From assembly GCA_021775795.1 (NCBI GenBank), contig JAJFHB010000265.1, positions 1 to 13,338 of the forward strand: DNA of 13,338 nucleotides. The letters are read 5' to 3'. This document shows positions 1,428 through 13,338 of this stretch, in pieces. The position numbers were made by a program, and so were the translations under genes. The first letter of the stretch is position 1. Every line of letters starts with the position of its first letter. Source of the DNA: Hyphomicrobiales bacterium (GTDB lineage Bacteria; Pseudomonadota; Alphaproteobacteria; Rhizobiales; JAJFHB01). The notes under the pieces were generated by a model. That model saw only the letters and a list, made by a program, of their open reading frames with translations. It did no database searches and was not told where the DNA came from.

Positions 1428-2123
1428 CTAGCCTGACAGTGCAAAATCCAATGCCGCCGTGGCGTGCAGTTCTGTGGTGTCGAAGACGGGGACCGCCAGA
1501 TCGGACTGGGACAGCAAGAGGCCAACTTCCGTGCAGCCGAAAATGACGCTGTCTGCACCCTGATCAAGGCTGGCCTGAACGACATCCAAATACTTCTGCT
1601 TTGACGACGGAGAGATGATGCCCTGACAGAGCTCATCATAGATTATGCCGTGCACGACATCGCGGCCCACGTCATCGGGTATGCAGACATTGATGCCGTG
1701 TCGGTCGCGCAAGTGGCCCTTGTAGAAATCCTGTTCCATCGTATAGCGCGTTGCCATGAGGAGAGGTTTTTCCACATCCCGGGCTTTGACAAGGCTGGCG
1801 GTTGCATCGGCGATATGGATCAGCGGAATGTCGACCGCCGCCTGCACCTCTGCGGCCATCTTGTGCATTGTGTTCGTGCAGATGACGATGCACTGAGCGC
1901 CACCCCGCTCGACACTTTGTGCGGCACTGGTCATAGCATCCGTTGCCGCCTGCCAGTCACCGGAAGCCTGATGTGCCTCGATCTCTGCAAAATCAAATGA
2001 CCAGAGCAAGCACTTTGCCGAATGAAGCCCACCAAGACGTTGCCGGGCCATGCGGTTGAGGAGTTGATAATACGTGACCGTGCTTTCCCAACTCATGCCA
2101 CCGATGAGACCGATCGTCTTCAT
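1428..2123 (-). CDS. Aspartate/glutamate racemase family protein
   Basis: This 231-residue protein belongs to the PLP-independent, two-cysteine amino acid racemase family, which inverts the alpha-carbon of aspartate, glutamate or related amino or hydroxy acids. It opens with KTIGLIGGMSWEST, the typical N-terminus of YgeA-like aspartate racemases. It keeps both catalytic cysteines in context, Cys82 in CTNTMHK and Cys197 in FGCTE. I chose the ATG at 2123 because AGAAGGA lies about 11 bases upstream and homologues begin at this point; the open frame runs further upstream to 2198 with no family similarity. It has no signal peptide, so it is cytosolic. It diverges from the aldolase-dehydrogenase operon and converges on the GGT-like gene. 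Release of gamma-linked glutamate by one and racemisation by the other is an attractive but unproven link. Substrate specificity cannot be read from the sequence. Confidence 0.88.
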   Translation of the reverse strand: MKTIGLIGGMSWESTVTYYQLLNRMARQRLGGLHSAKCLLWSFDFAEIEAHQASGDWQAATDAMTSAAQSVERGGAQCIVICTNTMHKMAAEVQAAVDIPLIHIADATASLVKARDVEKPLLMATRYTMEQDFYKGHLRDRHGINVCIPDDVGRDVVHGIIYDELCQGIISPSSKQKYLDVVQASLDQGADSVIFGCTEVGLLLSQSDLAVPVFDTTELHATAALDFALSG

Positions 2124-2278
2124 TATCGCGCATTCCTTCTCAACCGCTGGCCGAAACCATTGAACTTTCCCAGCGCACTTGTATGCAAAGCTGGACAAGC
2201 GGCAATTTCTTTTGCCTTCTCAATCAGCTTGCCGCAAGTTCCGATGAACCTGTGCGCATAAATTCGAGGAATAGGACG
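2124..2278. promoter_or_regulatory. Divergent promoter region between racemase and aldolase genes
   Basis: These 155 bases separate the start of the minus-strand racemase from the TTG start of the plus-strand aldolase, so they must hold both promoters. A possible plus-strand pair is TTGAAC (2160-2165) and TATGCA (2182-2187), spaced 16 bases, but the -10 matches consensus poorly. I see no convincing palindromic operator. Part of the stretch (from the ATG at 2183) is open in the aldolase frame but has no family similarity. Confidence 0.35.
2266..2270 (+). promoter_or_regulatory. Ribosome binding site supporting the TTG start of the aldolase
   Basis: GAGGA lies 8 bases before the TTG at 2279. 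The translated similarity to HpcH/HpaI aldolases (NSFKRAILSGKPQIGLW) begins only a few codons after that TTG. The in-frame ATG at 2183 has no comparable Shine-Dalgarno sequence and would add 32 residues without family resemblance. Confidence 0.65.
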
Positions 2279-3055
2279 TTGGCAACTCTCAAGACGAACA
2301 GTTTCAAACGGGCAATTCTCTCCGGTAAGCCACAGATCGGGCTTTGGATCAGCCTGTGCAGTAACTATGCCGCTGAAGCCGTTGCCAGCGCTGGCTATGA
2401 CTGGGCGCTTCTCGATATGGAGCATTCGCCAAGTGAAGTGCAAACCATACTTGCACAGCTGCAGGCTTTCGCTGCCCATTCGACCACGCCCATCGTTCGG
2501 CCGATGTGGAACGACATGGTGGTGGTAAAGCGGCTGCTTGATATCGGCTCGCCGGGGCTGTTATTTCCGATGGTGCAATCTGCGGAAGAAGCCCGGGCAG
2601 CCGTTGCTGCGACCCGCTATCCACCCGGGGGAATACGCGGTGTCGGCATGACACATCGTGGCAACAACTTCGGCCGCACCACGGATTACTTCGATCGCGT
2701 GCAGGAAGAGACCTGTGTCCTGGTGCAGGTCGAAACCCGAGAAGCGCTTGCGGACGTGGAGGCCATTGCCGGTGTTGATGGCGTCGATGGTGTGTTTTTT
2801 GGGCCATCAGATATTGCCGCCGACCTTGGCAAACTTGGCCAGCCAAACGACGCGGAAGTTTGGGACGTCATCGGACAGGCAGCCGACAAGGTGCGGGCCA
2901 TGGGCAAGCCTGTCGGCACCCTGGTGGGGACAGCGGAAAAGGCGGTGACACTGCTGAACGAAGGCTTTGCTTTCGTCGCCTGTGGCAGCGATCTTGGATT
3001 GTTGGCGCGAGGCGCGGATGCGCTACTTGCGCAGGTCCGGCAGGGCCTCAAGTAA
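2279..3055 (+). CDS. HpcH/HpaI family aldolase
   Basis: A 258-residue cytosolic TIM-barrel class II aldolase, the usual length for the family. These enzymes reversibly cleave 4-hydroxy-2-oxo acids to pyruvate and an aldehyde; relatives include HpaI (4-hydroxy-2-oxoheptanedioate) and GarL (2-dehydro-3-deoxyglucarate). The protein keeps the key positions: His49 in DMEH, Arg74 in VRPMWND, metal-binding Glu152 in VQVETRE, and Asp178 in FFGPSDIAADLG, plus the signature TRYPPGGIRGVG (112-123). Start: TTG at 2279 with GAGGA 8 bases upstream; an automatic caller might prefer the ATG at 2183. It is followed after 19 bases by the uronate-dehydrogenase-like gene, almost certainly in the same operon, which favours a sugar-acid substrate of the GarL type over an aromatic-degradation role. 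Exact substrate not determinable. Confidence 0.9.
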   Translation: MATLKTNSFKRAILSGKPQIGLWISLCSNYAAEAVASAGYDWALLDMEHSPSEVQTILAQLQAFAAHSTTPIVRPMWNDMVVVKRLLDIGSPGLLFPMVQSAEEARAAVAATRYPPGGIRGVGMTHRGNNFGRTTDYFDRVQEETCVLVQVETREALADVEAIAGVDGVDGVFFGPSDIAADLGKLGQPNDAEVWDVIGQAADKVRAMGKPVGTLVGTAEKAVTLLNEGFAFVACGSDLGLLARGADALLAQVRQGLK

Positions 3056-3980: not shown

Positions 3981-4688
3981 GTGGACGTCACCGTAGTCCT
4001 CCCAACAATGAAACGGACGAGCAACGGCTACAGCTATTTGCGTCAATCCATTGCGCACAACAAGAAGCTGCTCAACACATCGCCCCTGATATCCAACCGG
4101 TTTGTGTATTTTTCAAAAGAAGACCTGAGCGAGATCTCCCGGATTTCCGGCCTGCGGAAATTTGAACACATACTCAGGCCGACGCATGAGCGCCTGAAAG
4201 GGGTGGATAGAACCAGCTACGCCTATTGGCGCATGCATTTGTGCCTGGATTTTGCCGCCAGCATGCAACACGCAATGTCAGCCTCACCGTCCAAATACTT
4301 CATGTGGCTGGAGGACGACACCTTGCTGACGGCAAACTTTGAACTTGAGCTCATTCAGCTGATCGCCACGAACAAGAAGCTGCATATGGCCAGCGCCTAT
4401 CATACGGATGCGTTTGGCGGTTGTGCTGCCTGCCTCATCCTTGAACGACAATCACTGATTGAGTATGTGGATCTGATCGAGCAGAGATACCTTGAAGACA
4501 TCCCCCTGGACCATTTCTACGAGTACCACAGCCGCAAGATTTCACCCTTCCGAAATAAGGCGGCGCTCCATATTGGAAAACATTCCTCACGGTCAGACAG
4601 CGTCTGCATCCGAGAGGAGGAATTCCCAACGAGGCTTGCAAAGTACAAGAGCTTGCTTCTGGCGAAACTGCATCTGCTGAATCGCTGA
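3981..4688 (+). CDS. Putative glycosyltransferase resembling GT54 (MGAT4, GnT-IV) enzymes
   Basis: A 235-residue protein starting at GTG, with AGGG 7 bases upstream. It opens VTVVLPTMKR (3-12), close to the IPTVKRE opening of the MGAT4 catalytic domain. It has a GT-A metal motif in MWLEDDTLLTANF (108-120, Glu111-Asp112-Asp113) and ends with LHIGKHSSR (196-204), where MGAT4 proteins have QHVGLHSSL. Known members transfer GlcNAc from UDP-GlcNAc in beta-1,4 linkage to the alpha-1,3 mannose arm of N-glycans. No signal peptide or membrane segment is visible, so it should be cytosolic. The donor and acceptor are unknown; a capsule, lipopolysaccharide, glycolipid or protein target is possible. Two counted rows inside it have 48 and 50% GC, below the 63% of a row in the TPP-enzyme gene, hinting at acquired DNA. 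It follows the dehydrogenase by 75 bases and converges on the GT13-like gene. The family assignment rests on motifs read by eye. Confidence 0.62.
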   Translation: MDVTVVLPTMKRTSNGYSYLRQSIAHNKKLLNTSPLISNRFVYFSKEDLSEISRISGLRKFEHILRPTHERLKGVDRTSYAYWRMHLCLDFAASMQHAMSASPSKYFMWLEDDTLLTANFELELIQLIATNKKLHMASAYHTDAFGGCAACLILERQSLIEYVDLIEQRYLEDIPLDHFYEYHSRKISPFRNKAALHIGKHSSRSDSVCIREEEFPTRLAKYKSLLLAKLHLLNR

Positions 4689-4710
4689 ACGTGAAGCGAT
4701 CTGGGCGCGA

Positions 4711-5784
4711 TCAAAGGCGCACAGCCAGCTTTTCAGCTCCAGCATCGCCGGTGATGTAGGTCAGGGGTACGAGATAGATCGTGCGATCGCCTTCCCTGCA
4801 TGAAACAACTCCATTGCAGGAAACTCTCGGCAGCCCGGCGTCCAGTGAGGATGGCATCAAACCGAGACTGTCAGCCAGCGCATCAAAGCTTCCACTGCTG
4901 TGATAGAGAATTTTTATGTCGGCACCAGGATGCGATGAGAGCTGCCCGGGCTCGACCGGCAGAGCCCCGGCCACGGCTTCCCGCAGAGCGGCATCGTAAG
5001 CCGGCTTGTGGAGGTAACTCAGATCTATCTGTGTGAAATCGACAGGTTCCGTGTTGACCGCGAGGTCTGCCAGGCGTTCATCAAAAAACTCTGTACCAGC
5101 CGTTCCAATGCGGCCGATGTTTCGGGTTCGCGAGAACTCAGGAATGATGATTGAACGGCCTTTGCGCTGCTGGGGCAGGCGAAGCCATTGGTCCCAATGC
5201 ATTACCGGCCACTCACTCTGAACCTCTTCCCACATCTTTCGCGTCATGAGCCATCCAAGACCTGGAAAAAAATCTGTTCGCAACAGCCTTTCCCTGTCGA
5301 CGACGCGGCCGTGATAGCTGTGATCGTTCCACGCGGATACCGACCATATCGTGGAATCCGCATCAATAAGTGCCGCCGCCGATTCCAGAAAATTGAAAAA
5401 GTCCGGGCCTATTTCAATATCGTCTTCAAGTATGATCAAGCGCTCCAGGCCCTGCTGATCAAAGAGTTCCTCGAGCGCCCAGCCATAATGCTGGGAAATG
5501 CGGTAATAAACCTGCCATTTCCCAAAGTATTTCGCTTCCGCGGCGTCCTTGGTGGCATCTCCGGATAGTGGCAACCGGCGTACAGGCGCCGTGAACCTCA
5601 AGTGATTGATACGTGAACCGTAGGAACGAATGACAGCGTCAACTTCCGCGTCGTGACCGTCCTGCGATACGAACACCCTTCGATCGCGAATGTCAGGATT
5701 TGCAAACAACACATCAAGCGCCTGCCGAAGATAGGCAGGCCGGTTGCAGGCAAACAATACGACTGGAATATCTTCAGCTGACAT
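4711..5784 (-). CDS. GNT-I (GT13, MGAT1-like) glycosyltransferase
   Basis: A 357-residue protein that I can align from memory to animal N-acetylglucosaminyltransferase I almost to its end. Matches in order: PVVLFACNRP (7-16), SQDGH (40-44), YYRISQHYGWAL (93-104), the metal-binding ILEDDIEIGPDFF (118-130, Glu120-Asp121-Asp122), SVSAWND (148-154), RTDFFPGLGWLM (169-180), WDQWLRLPQQRKGR (197-210), FTQIDLSYL (250-258), and a C-terminal subdomain with SFDALADSLGLM (299-310). Animal enzymes are about 445 residues, the extra length being the Golgi anchor and stem, absent here; no signal or membrane segment is seen. GnT-I adds beta-1,2-GlcNAc from UDP-GlcNAc to Man5GlcNAc2. The bacterial acceptor is unknown. 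The ATG at 5784 sits just before the first conserved strand; no good Shine-Dalgarno is visible. Same strand as the GNAT gene, 84 bases downstream of it. The family call is strong, exact activity open. Confidence 0.87.
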   Translation of the reverse strand: MSAEDIPVVLFACNRPAYLRQALDVLFANPDIRDRRVFVSQDGHDAEVDAVIRSYGSRINHLRFTAPVRRLPLSGDATKDAAEAKYFGKWQVYYRISQHYGWALEELFDQQGLERLIILEDDIEIGPDFFNFLESAAALIDADSTIWSVSAWNDHSYHGRVVDRERLLRTDFFPGLGWLMTRKMWEEVQSEWPVMHWDQWLRLPQQRKGRSIIIPEFSRTRNIGRIGTAGTEFFDERLADLAVNTEPVDFTQIDLSYLHKPAYDAALREAVAGALPVEPGQLSSHPGADIKILYHSSGSFDALADSLGLMPSSLDAGLPRVSCNGVVSCREGDRTIYLVPLTYITGDAGAEKLAVRL

Positions 5785-8930: not shown

Positions 8931-10631
8931 TCAGTGCCCCTCCACAAAGGCATCCGGGTCCGTCAGGCTGACAATGGGAGCAATTGCTTCGGGATCGATC
9001 AGGACATCTATGAGATAGGGTTTGTCTGATGCCCGGGCCCGAGCCAGGGCAGGGGCAATTTCGGCTGGATCAGCCACCTGTTCGCCCTGCCAGCCCATTT
9101 CACGCGCGACGGCACTGTGGTCAATTTCGAGCAGATCGCACTCCCACGGGCTGTCGAGAATTTTTTCTTCGACGTGTTTTTGAAATCCAAGTGTTGCATT
9201 GTTGAAGATAACGGTTGTGAGCTTCACGTTGCAACGGGCCGCGGTCTCCAGTTCAGACAACACATAACCAAAGCCGCCATCACCGGAGATGCAGAGCACT
9301 TCGCGATCGGGCTGGCCTATCTTCGCGCCAATGGCGGCCGGCAACCCCCAGCCCAAACCACCCGTACCGCGCGGGGAGATGACACCGTTTCCAGCGCCGT
9401 GGGTATCGATGTGGCTGAATGCCCAGCCGGTCACATAGCTCGCATCCGTCACCAGAATATCGTCCGGGGCGGCAGCATCAGAAATGTCACGTAACACCCG
9501 TTCCGGACGTATGGGAACTTGTTGTGACCGGGCGATTGTATCGAACCGTTCCCGCCAACCCTGACGCAGCGTTGCGACACGTTCAAGCTGGGTTTCATTT
9601 GCGGTGCGATTGCCAAGCCCCGAGCAGGCAGCGATGAGCTCCCGCATCGTATCGCGAACGTCGCCCAGAAGCGCCACATCGGTACGGAAATTGCGGCCTA
9701 TTTCCACCGCATCCACATCTACATGGAGAACCTTTGTGCCCGGGCCCGGCAGGGTCCAGTCGAAACTGCAGATCTGGCCGTTGCGAGAGCCCAGGATGAG
9801 AGCAACATCCGCCTCGCGCAATATTGTGTTGGCAACCTGACCCCGCCCGTAAGCGCCGCCGGTTGATGTGCCGAGGGCCCCAACAGACAACGGATGCGCA
9901 TCGGCAATGGCTCCTCGGCCGTTCATGGTCGTGGCAACGGGGGCTGACAGTTGTTCTGCAAGGGTCAGCACTTCCTCATGGGCGCGGGAGTGCATGGCGC
10001 CACCGCCGGCAATAATGACGGGCCGCTTAGCGTCAACAAGGATGCGCGCCGCCTCGAGGACACTTTCAACGGAAGCGCGCGAACGCATGGACGGGAACCG
10101 GACAAATGCCTCGTCCACATAGGTTTCCGCCGGGCTCAACTCACCCATTATGTCCCGAGGGCACAGCACCACCACCGGACCCGGCCGTCCCGAAGTGGCT
10201 ATGCGGAAGGCGTGGCGGACGGTTTCTGCTGCCCGATCAGGTGTTTCGATCCGGGTTACCCATTTTGCGAACGGGGTTAGTGCTGCAACATGGTCAAGCT
10301 CACTTGAAGCGTGGCGGCCGCGCTGGGCAGCAGCGATGTCGACGACAAATGCGATGACAGGCACCGATGACTGCAGCGCCTCCAGCAGTCCGGTCGCGAG
10401 ATTGCTGGCTGCCGGGCCACACATGGCTGTGCAGACCCCGGGCCGGCCCGTTGCTTTGGCAAACCCGTGAGCCATGATGGCCCCATGCTTTTCATCACGC
10501 ACGGTAATCGCCCGCAATCCAAGCGGCCGGATGGCGTGATAAAGATCAAGCGGATCTTTCATGCCAAAGAGGTGGGTCACCCCATAGATCTTGAGTGTTT
10601 CTGCCACGGCTTGCGCTGCTGTCTGGCTCAC
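8931..10631 (-). CDS. Thiamine pyrophosphate-dependent enzyme, acetolactate synthase-like
   Basis: A 566-residue protein with the three-domain layout of the POX/acetolactate synthase family: N-terminal pyrimidine-binding domain, central domain and C-terminal PP-binding domain. The cofactor-activating Glu47 is in VRDEKHGA. The central part has NGRGAIADAHPLSVG and VLHVDVDAVEIGRNF. The metal-diphosphate motif starts GDGGF at 450-454 and ends NN at 477-478. Members decarboxylate 2-oxo acids and often ligate the product; specific candidates are a 2-oxo acid decarboxylase or carboligase rather than biosynthetic IlvB, because no regulatory subunit gene is adjacent. The start is GTG at 10631 with AAGG 9 bases upstream. 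It leads the two-gene operon with the monooxygenase and is divergent from an IclR regulator, which suggests a substrate-induced catabolic unit. Confidence 0.9.
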   Translation of the reverse strand: MSQTAAQAVAETLKIYGVTHLFGMKDPLDLYHAIRPLGLRAITVRDEKHGAIMAHGFAKATGRPGVCTAMCGPAASNLATGLLEALQSSVPVIAFVVDIAAAQRGRHASSELDHVAALTPFAKWVTRIETPDRAAETVRHAFRIATSGRPGPVVVLCPRDIMGELSPAETYVDEAFVRFPSMRSRASVESVLEAARILVDAKRPVIIAGGGAMHSRAHEEVLTLAEQLSAPVATTMNGRGAIADAHPLSVGALGTSTGGAYGRGQVANTILREADVALILGSRNGQICSFDWTLPGPGTKVLHVDVDAVEIGRNFRTDVALLGDVRDTMRELIAACSGLGNRTANETQLERVATLRQGWRERFDTIARSQQVPIRPERVLRDISDAAAPDDILVTDASYVTGWAFSHIDTHGAGNGVISPRGTGGLGWGLPAAIGAKIGQPDREVLCISGDGGFGYVLSELETAARCNVKLTTVIFNNATLGFQKHVEEKILDSPWECDLLEIDHSAVAREMGWQGEQVADPAEIAPALARARASDKPYLIDVLIDPEAIAPIVSLTDPDAFVEGH

Positions 10632-12865: not shown

Positions 12866-13338
12866 CTAGTGCGCCTCATCCCAGTTTGAGGCAGCGCGTG
12901 CATCGACCTGCAATGGCACGGTCAACTGGATTGCCGGCAAGGGCGCTGCCACCATGACCGAAACGGCCAGCTCAATGGTCTTTTCAACCTCTGCTTCTGG
13001 TGCTTCGAATATCAGCTCATCGTGAACCTGAAGCAGCATACGCGCACTCAAGCTCGCGTCATCCAACGCTTCATGCATACGCATCATGGCGCGGCGGATG
13101 ATGTCGGCTGCGGAGCCCTGGATCGGCGCGTTGATGGCGGCACGTTCCATGAAGGCGCGGTGGTTCGGGTTCTTGGAATTGATTTCGGGATAATGCGCCC
13201 GGCGCCCGAAAATGGTCTCCACGTAGCCCTGTCGGCGGCAGGTTTCCTTGGTTTCTTCCATGTAGGCGCGAATGCCGGGGAAGCGTTCGAAATAGGTATC
13301 GATGTAGTCCTTCGCCTCGGATCGGCCAATCTGGAGCT
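12866..13338 (-). CDS. polA: DNA polymerase I, C-terminal part, 5'-truncated by the window edge
   Basis: The last 156 residues of a family A DNA polymerase, open to the window end; the upstream part lies outside. Visible text includes the O-helix-distal segment EAKDYIDTYFERFPGI, then ETIFGRRAHYPEINSKNPNHRAFMERAAINAPIQGSAADIIRRAM in two recognisable blocks, and motif C LLQVHDELIFEAP (nucleotides about 13003-13041), whose His-Asp-Glu holds a catalytic metal ligand. It ends in NWDEAH. PolA fills gaps in repair and removes RNA primers in replication. An ATG at 13261 is internal and not the start. As a core gene this anchors the window in a chromosome. Nothing looks broken in the visible part. Confidence 0.97.
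   Translation of the reverse strand, partial: LQIGRSEAKDYIDTYFERFPGIRAYMEETKETCRRQGYVETIFGRRAHYPEINSKNPNHRAFMERAAINAPIQGSAADIIRRAMMRMHEALDDASLSARMLLQVHDELIFEAPEAEVEKTIELAVSVMVAAPLPAIQLTVPLQVDARAASNWDEAH

Follow-up and report, generated by a model that had tools for sequence, protein, structure and literature searches.

Does a bacterium possess GnT-I, and has this enzyme a GnT-IV-like partner there? In animals and plants, GnT-I begins the assembly of complex sugar trees on proteins, and a statement in a review holds that bacteria lack such enzymes. The question is raised by 13,338 nucleotides of a draft genome of a Hyphomicrobiales bacterium (assembly GCA_021775795.1, contig JAJFHB010000265.1; the whole stretch is called the window). 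A preliminary description, made from the sequence alone, had noted a GnT-I-like gene and a GnT-IV-like gene lying tail to tail, 22 bases apart, and this arrangement was found as described. The second gene is called open reading frame 1 (ORF1). The features are as follows (aa, amino acid residues).

3981..4688, plus strand: ORF1, probable GT-A glycosyltransferase of 235 aa (GTG start), distantly GT54 (MGAT4)-like and confined to the catalytic domain
4311..4319, plus strand: DxD-type metal site of ORF1, EDD at residues 111-113, conserved without change in all eight members of its family
4689..4710, no strand: spacer of 22 bases between the convergent genes ORF1 and GT13
4711..5784, minus strand: predicted glycosyltransferase of family GT13 (GnT-I), 357 aa from an ATG start, with no membrane anchor
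5419..5427, minus strand: EDD metal-site motif of GT13, residues E120, D121 and D122, corresponding to rabbit E211-D212-D213
5191..5193, minus strand: predicted general base of GT13, D198, corresponding to rabbit D291
5098..5100, minus strand: A229 of GT13, corresponding to rabbit S322 (Ser in the other seven aligned rows)

The GT13 protein and its rarity

Judged from its sequence, the GnT-I-like protein is a GT13 enzyme whose catalytic residues are kept. It passes the curated cut-off of Pfam PF03071 (GNT-I; 25.4 bits) with 305.2 bits (E value 9.4e-91), and it matches rabbit GnT-I (1fo9) with an E value of 4.6e-71, 123 of the 292 aligned residues being identical. Both the N-lobe and the C-lobe of the GT-A fold are present, and the top fold match is GnT-I. 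Rabbit D291 is given as the general base in the relevant passages of PMC7014118 and PMC7948508. No anchor-like stretch was found in the GT13 protein (highest 19-residue Kyte-Doolittle mean, 0.85) or in ORF1 (1.10), in agreement with the earlier statement that both lack export or membrane signals. Golgi GnT-I has a type II membrane anchor; the anchor is a feature of location and is not known to belong to the CAZy definition of GT13. The observation is genuine and uncommon, and its strong part is the bacterial GT13, which contradicts printed statements on bacteria. No report of one was found in the open-licence literature, and an apparent mention of "GT13" in PMC11231755 proved to be GT137. PMC7185993 counts 15 of 53 GT-A families as common to prokaryotes and eukaryotes.

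Is this gene common in bacteria? A genome scan (pattern plus tblastn over 84,980 GTDB species genomes, in which divergent relatives can escape the patterns and the listing may omit records from the genome of the window itself) gave 43 loci, one at 53% identity and 42 at 19-29%. The former belongs to the metagenome-assembled genome (MAG) Hyphomicrobiales OFTM97 of the same GTDB family as the window, and was taken as the locus of the genome called G002 here (L004 4695-11593 on the 226 kb contig G002:C18). Its ORF is open; one TAG in the match lies 5′ of the ATG. Within the order, PF03071 matches four of 397 genomes at E <= 0.001 and passes its cut-off in two, the window's genome and G002 (99% complete), and only these two were found to have a full GT13. 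A protein search, which scored the best 8000 candidates by words in common, added P0006 (54%) and P0007 (46%), both without an anchor-like stretch. P0009 and P0014 are further GT13 proteins of the protein database that have no such stretch. Relatives of neither GT13 nor ORF1 were found in the viral contigs, plasmids and phages searched.

The 42 weak loci (L006-L047) encode GT-A proteins from several phyla, mostly of about 300-350 aa and often with "VIVLEDDLE". Their likeness to the window's GT13 is mostly N-terminal (19-29%). EDD is present in 41 of the 42 printed rows, while FPGLGW or WDxW is present in none of the 42, of which L046 is a fragment of 50 residues.

Might the gene be a eukaryotic contaminant, or the contig mis-binned? 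The assembly is indeed a draft: it comprises 705 contigs (the window is C185) that total 3.63 Mb, at 71% completeness. However, bacterial gene families flank the pair on both sides, and a genome of the same GTDB family carries a homologue of 52% identity to the window's GT13 on a contig of 226 kb. Moreover, the PolA fragment at the end of the window (12866-13261) shares 83% identity with PolA of G002, the best among 60 other genomes (55 with a match; G001 and G003 of the same family have none). Since the closest PolA is that of a same-family genome, the contig fits its bin. Contamination was thus ruled out by the PolA match and the G002 locus, and I regard it as extremely improbable.

ORF1 and the question of a two-gene module

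The name "GnT-IV-like" stands only in part. All eight members of a small ORF1 family match PF04666 (MGAT4) and no other Pfam family at E <= 0.1, but ORF1 itself reaches 17.2 bits (E value 0.0025), while the curated cut-off is 51.5. Thus, the name holds as a distant likeness only, and ORF1 is probably a GT-A-type glycosyltransferase related to GT54 from afar. The GT54 catalytic set of PMC12616123 has five motifs. Motifs 1, 2, 3 and 5 occur in ORF1 in order, as KR at 11, D-x6-WR at 76, EDD at 111 and HIGKH (H-x-G-x-H) at 197, with the exception of the glycines of motifs 1 and 2. The KR of motif 1 and the D-x6-WR are inexact in the relatives P0070, P0072 and P0073. Another relative, P0071, is listed under a Planctomycetota MAG, which belongs to another phylum. 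In a structure comparison, the closest solved structure to ORF1 was GnT-I; no solved GT54 catalytic domain was among the 50 structure matches listed, and a sequence search of the PDB with ORF1 gave no match.

Do the two genes form a branching module, as was proposed? GT13 would make GlcNAc-beta-1,2-Man (GlcNAc, N-acetylglucosamine; Man, mannose), and ORF1 would add a beta-1,4 GlcNAc to the same mannose, like animal GnT-I and GnT-IV. According to the section of PMC7185993 on clades, one GT-A clade holds GT13, GT16 and GT54. The distance of 22 bases, the four GT54 motifs and the fact that GnT-I is the closest solved structure for both proteins also favour the module. On the other hand, convergent genes have by default no common transcript, and ORF1 is far below the GT54 cut-off, without motif 4 and without a lectin domain. 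Conserved adjacency, which the proposal would lead one to expect, is unsupported. G002, of the same family, has GT13 but no match to the ORF1 family in a profile search; its GT13 adjoins a GT25 gene tail to tail. Among the 397 genomes of the order, the pair was found in the window's genome only, and the ORF1 profile matched two genomes, the window's and one with a partial match of 20 bits. This comes near to the finding that would speak against the proposal, namely that the two genes never co-occur in other genomes, though only two genomes bear on the question. A conserved two-gene module is unsupported by the genomes compared (n=2). The module is the weak part of the observation. Since the adjacency is unshared and the GT54 cut-off was failed, ORF1 is named GT54-like and the pair a possible, unproven partnership; a GnT-I to GnT-IV module is possible, but I consider it unlikely.

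The G002 locus reads: P-loop protein (-), group-1 glycosyltransferase (-), PF11051 mannosyltransferase (-), GT25 (+), GT13 (-) and exostosin-like protein (-). Two of these labels are weak: exostosin scores 17.6 bits against a cut-off of 33.4, and P-loop 19.4 bits against 32.6. The ends of GT25 and GT13 overlap by 32 bases, and ORF1 has no likeness to this GT25 by BLASTP. A passage of PMC5225481 assigns yeast Mnn1, Mnn2 and Mnn5 to PF11051; no match to this family was found in G001 or G003. PF01755 (GT25) is present in two of the four genomes searched (the window's and G001-G003), namely G002 and, on another contig at 24.4 bits, the window's genome. STT3 had no match in any of the four.

Are the two genes then chance neighbours, gained separately at one spot, with ORF1 unrelated to the GT13 product? 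In favour of this, the pair was seen in no other genome of the order, the remaining Pfam-named genes of the window are metabolic or regulatory, and ORF1 has the lowest G+C among 14 window genes (0.517; 0.546 for GT13), though its third-position value of 0.661 is not low. However, two rare families would have had to meet at 22 bases, and GT13 in G002 is again convergent with a glycosyltransferase gene. Chance is a serious competitor that falls somewhat short of an even prospect.

The reading that I prefer, with the balance about level, is that GT13 adds GlcNAc to the alpha-mannosyl end of a surface glycan, with ORF1 as a second, loosely linked transferase. The computations themselves show the GT13 membership, the conserved catalytic residues, the missing anchor, the rarity, the place outside the animal rows and an adjacency that the second genome does not share. 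I infer the donor, linkage and acceptor, the role in a surface glycan and the cooperation with ORF1 as follows. The product of the GnT-I-like gene would be a soluble GT13 enzyme of the cytosol. It would transfer GlcNAc from uridine diphosphate-GlcNAc, in a manganese-dependent manner and with inversion, to O2 of a terminal alpha-mannosyl (or similar) residue. The acceptor may be a bacterial glycan while on its lipid carrier, or on lipopolysaccharide. ORF1 would be a second GT-A transferase that depends on a sugar nucleotide and belongs to the wider GnT-I/GnT-II/GnT-IV clan; its target is probably the surface glycan that GT13 would modify or a related one, and its link to GT13 would be local rather than a fixed two-gene module.

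Several results weigh against this reading. The structure model of GT13 is weak (mean predicted local distance difference test score, 67.7). Among eight aligned rows, only the window's GT13 has Ala in place of rabbit S322, a flexible-loop residue that contacts donor and acceptor in the account of PMC7014118, and among the four anchor-free relatives (window, G002, P0006 and P0007) it has the longest branch. From these two results, the acceptor or the activity of GT13 may have changed; S322 was taken as a feature of specificity and not as family-defining for GT13. PF11051 has no match in the window's genome (71% complete). As for ORF1, besides its low PF04666 score, nothing in the window's own genome reached E 0.001 in a search with PF04666; motif 4 (GFIGKLF/GYIGKLY) is not recognisable, FGGCAAC standing at its likely place; the C-terminal lectin domain is absent; and its Z score to GnT-I is only about 1.5 above those to hyaluronan and cellulose synthases. 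With so small a margin, the fold match is nearly as much to GT-A proteins generally as to the GnT-I/GnT-II/GnT-IV clan.

History of the bacterial GT13

Where did this gene come from? Either 12 or 10 of the 42 weak bacterial ORFs served as outgroup for the GT13 trees, which have a long root branch; the sample was drawn from matches to the window protein, and no plants are among the names. In the two rooted trees, the window, G002, P0006 and P0007 take a basal position in GT13, apart from the main group formed by other rows. The main group holds 29 rows at 95/77 in one tree, including the anchor-free P0014 at its base, and 26 rows at 87/82 in the other, both below star level. Also outside it, near the bacterial rows, are P0009 and P0008, the latter an mmetsp transcript that encodes an anchor-like stretch. 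That the four anchor-free relatives form one group has weak support (56/0 and 71/100). With modest support, the sequences thus place the bacterial GT13 outside the main eukaryotic group.

A eukaryotic transfer, in which a Golgi GnT-I gene lost its anchor and stem, has in its favour that eukaryotic GT13 is abundant among the protein matches listed while bacterial GT13 is very rare, and that the anchor-bearing P0008 lies at the base beside the bacterial rows. In contrast, the trees put the bacterial rows outside the main eukaryotic group (with rooting over a long branch), and the approximately unbiased (AU) test rejected grouping them with the 11 animal-group rows (p-AU 0.003 and 2.4e-5), six of which are named animals (P0019, P0022, P0025, P0028, P0057 and P0059). 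Holding together all rows taken as eukaryotic was not rejected (p 0.26 and 0.51); in the test set of p-AU 0.003, these are 29 rows, 8 organism-named, 3 from eukprot/mmetsp and 18 metagenome or ENA proteins. The AU tests ruled out that the gene was gained recently from an animal host. A protist outside the sample may have been the donor long ago, and eukaryotic transfer as a whole is a minority prospect of real weight. The gene may thus have arisen in bacteria or have come from a eukaryote in the distant past; in the preferred reading, the window's GT13 would be an old branch of the family, with no recent gain from an animal.

A bolder idea, which I hold to be a long shot, is that the membrane-free bacterial GT13 is the old form and Golgi GnT-I its descendant. 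GT13 of these Hyphomicrobiales would then give a mannosylated surface glycan a GlcNAc-beta-1,2-mannose terminus. A GT54-like partner in the window's organism would add a second branch, and the result would be a prokaryotic complex-type antenna. With a soluble bacterial GT13 whose catalytic core is intact, the origin of complex N-glycans would become open to test, and glycoengineering might gain an anchor-free GnT-I.

Setting of the locus and comparison with known enzymes

The pair is flanked by an NAD-dependent epimerase gene on one side and GNAT, Lrp and EamA genes on the other; gamma-glutamyltranspeptidase lies at the left edge of the window and the PolA fragment at the right. A promoter scan gave no sites (1.4 in shuffles) and a terminator scan two (1.9 in shuffles), and no repeats close to the pair mark a boundary. 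A thiamine pyrophosphate enzyme gene (8931-10631) has relatives of only 24-32% identity in G001-G003. The starts of a racemase ORF (1428-2198, minus strand) and an HpcH/HpaI aldolase ORF (2183-3055, plus strand) overlap at 2183-2198; thus, the true start of at least one probably lies further in.

How does the pair compare with known systems? With GnT-IV/MGAT4 (GT54, PF04666), ORF1 has in common KR, D-x6-WR, EDD and H-x-G-x-H in order, but it has no recognisable motif 4, linker, lectin domain or anchor, and it scores 17 bits against 51.5. POMGNT1, also of GT13, matches the window's GT13 much less well than GnT-I does (E value 1.3e-33 versus 4.6e-71), and has an extra lectin domain according to the passage of PMC7014118 on it. 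GnT-I/MGAT1 (GT13, PF03071) shares with the window's protein the N- and C-lobe catalytic region, EDD, W290, D291, FFPGLGW and WDxW; the window's protein differs in being bacterial, without anchor or stem, and in having Ala for S322.
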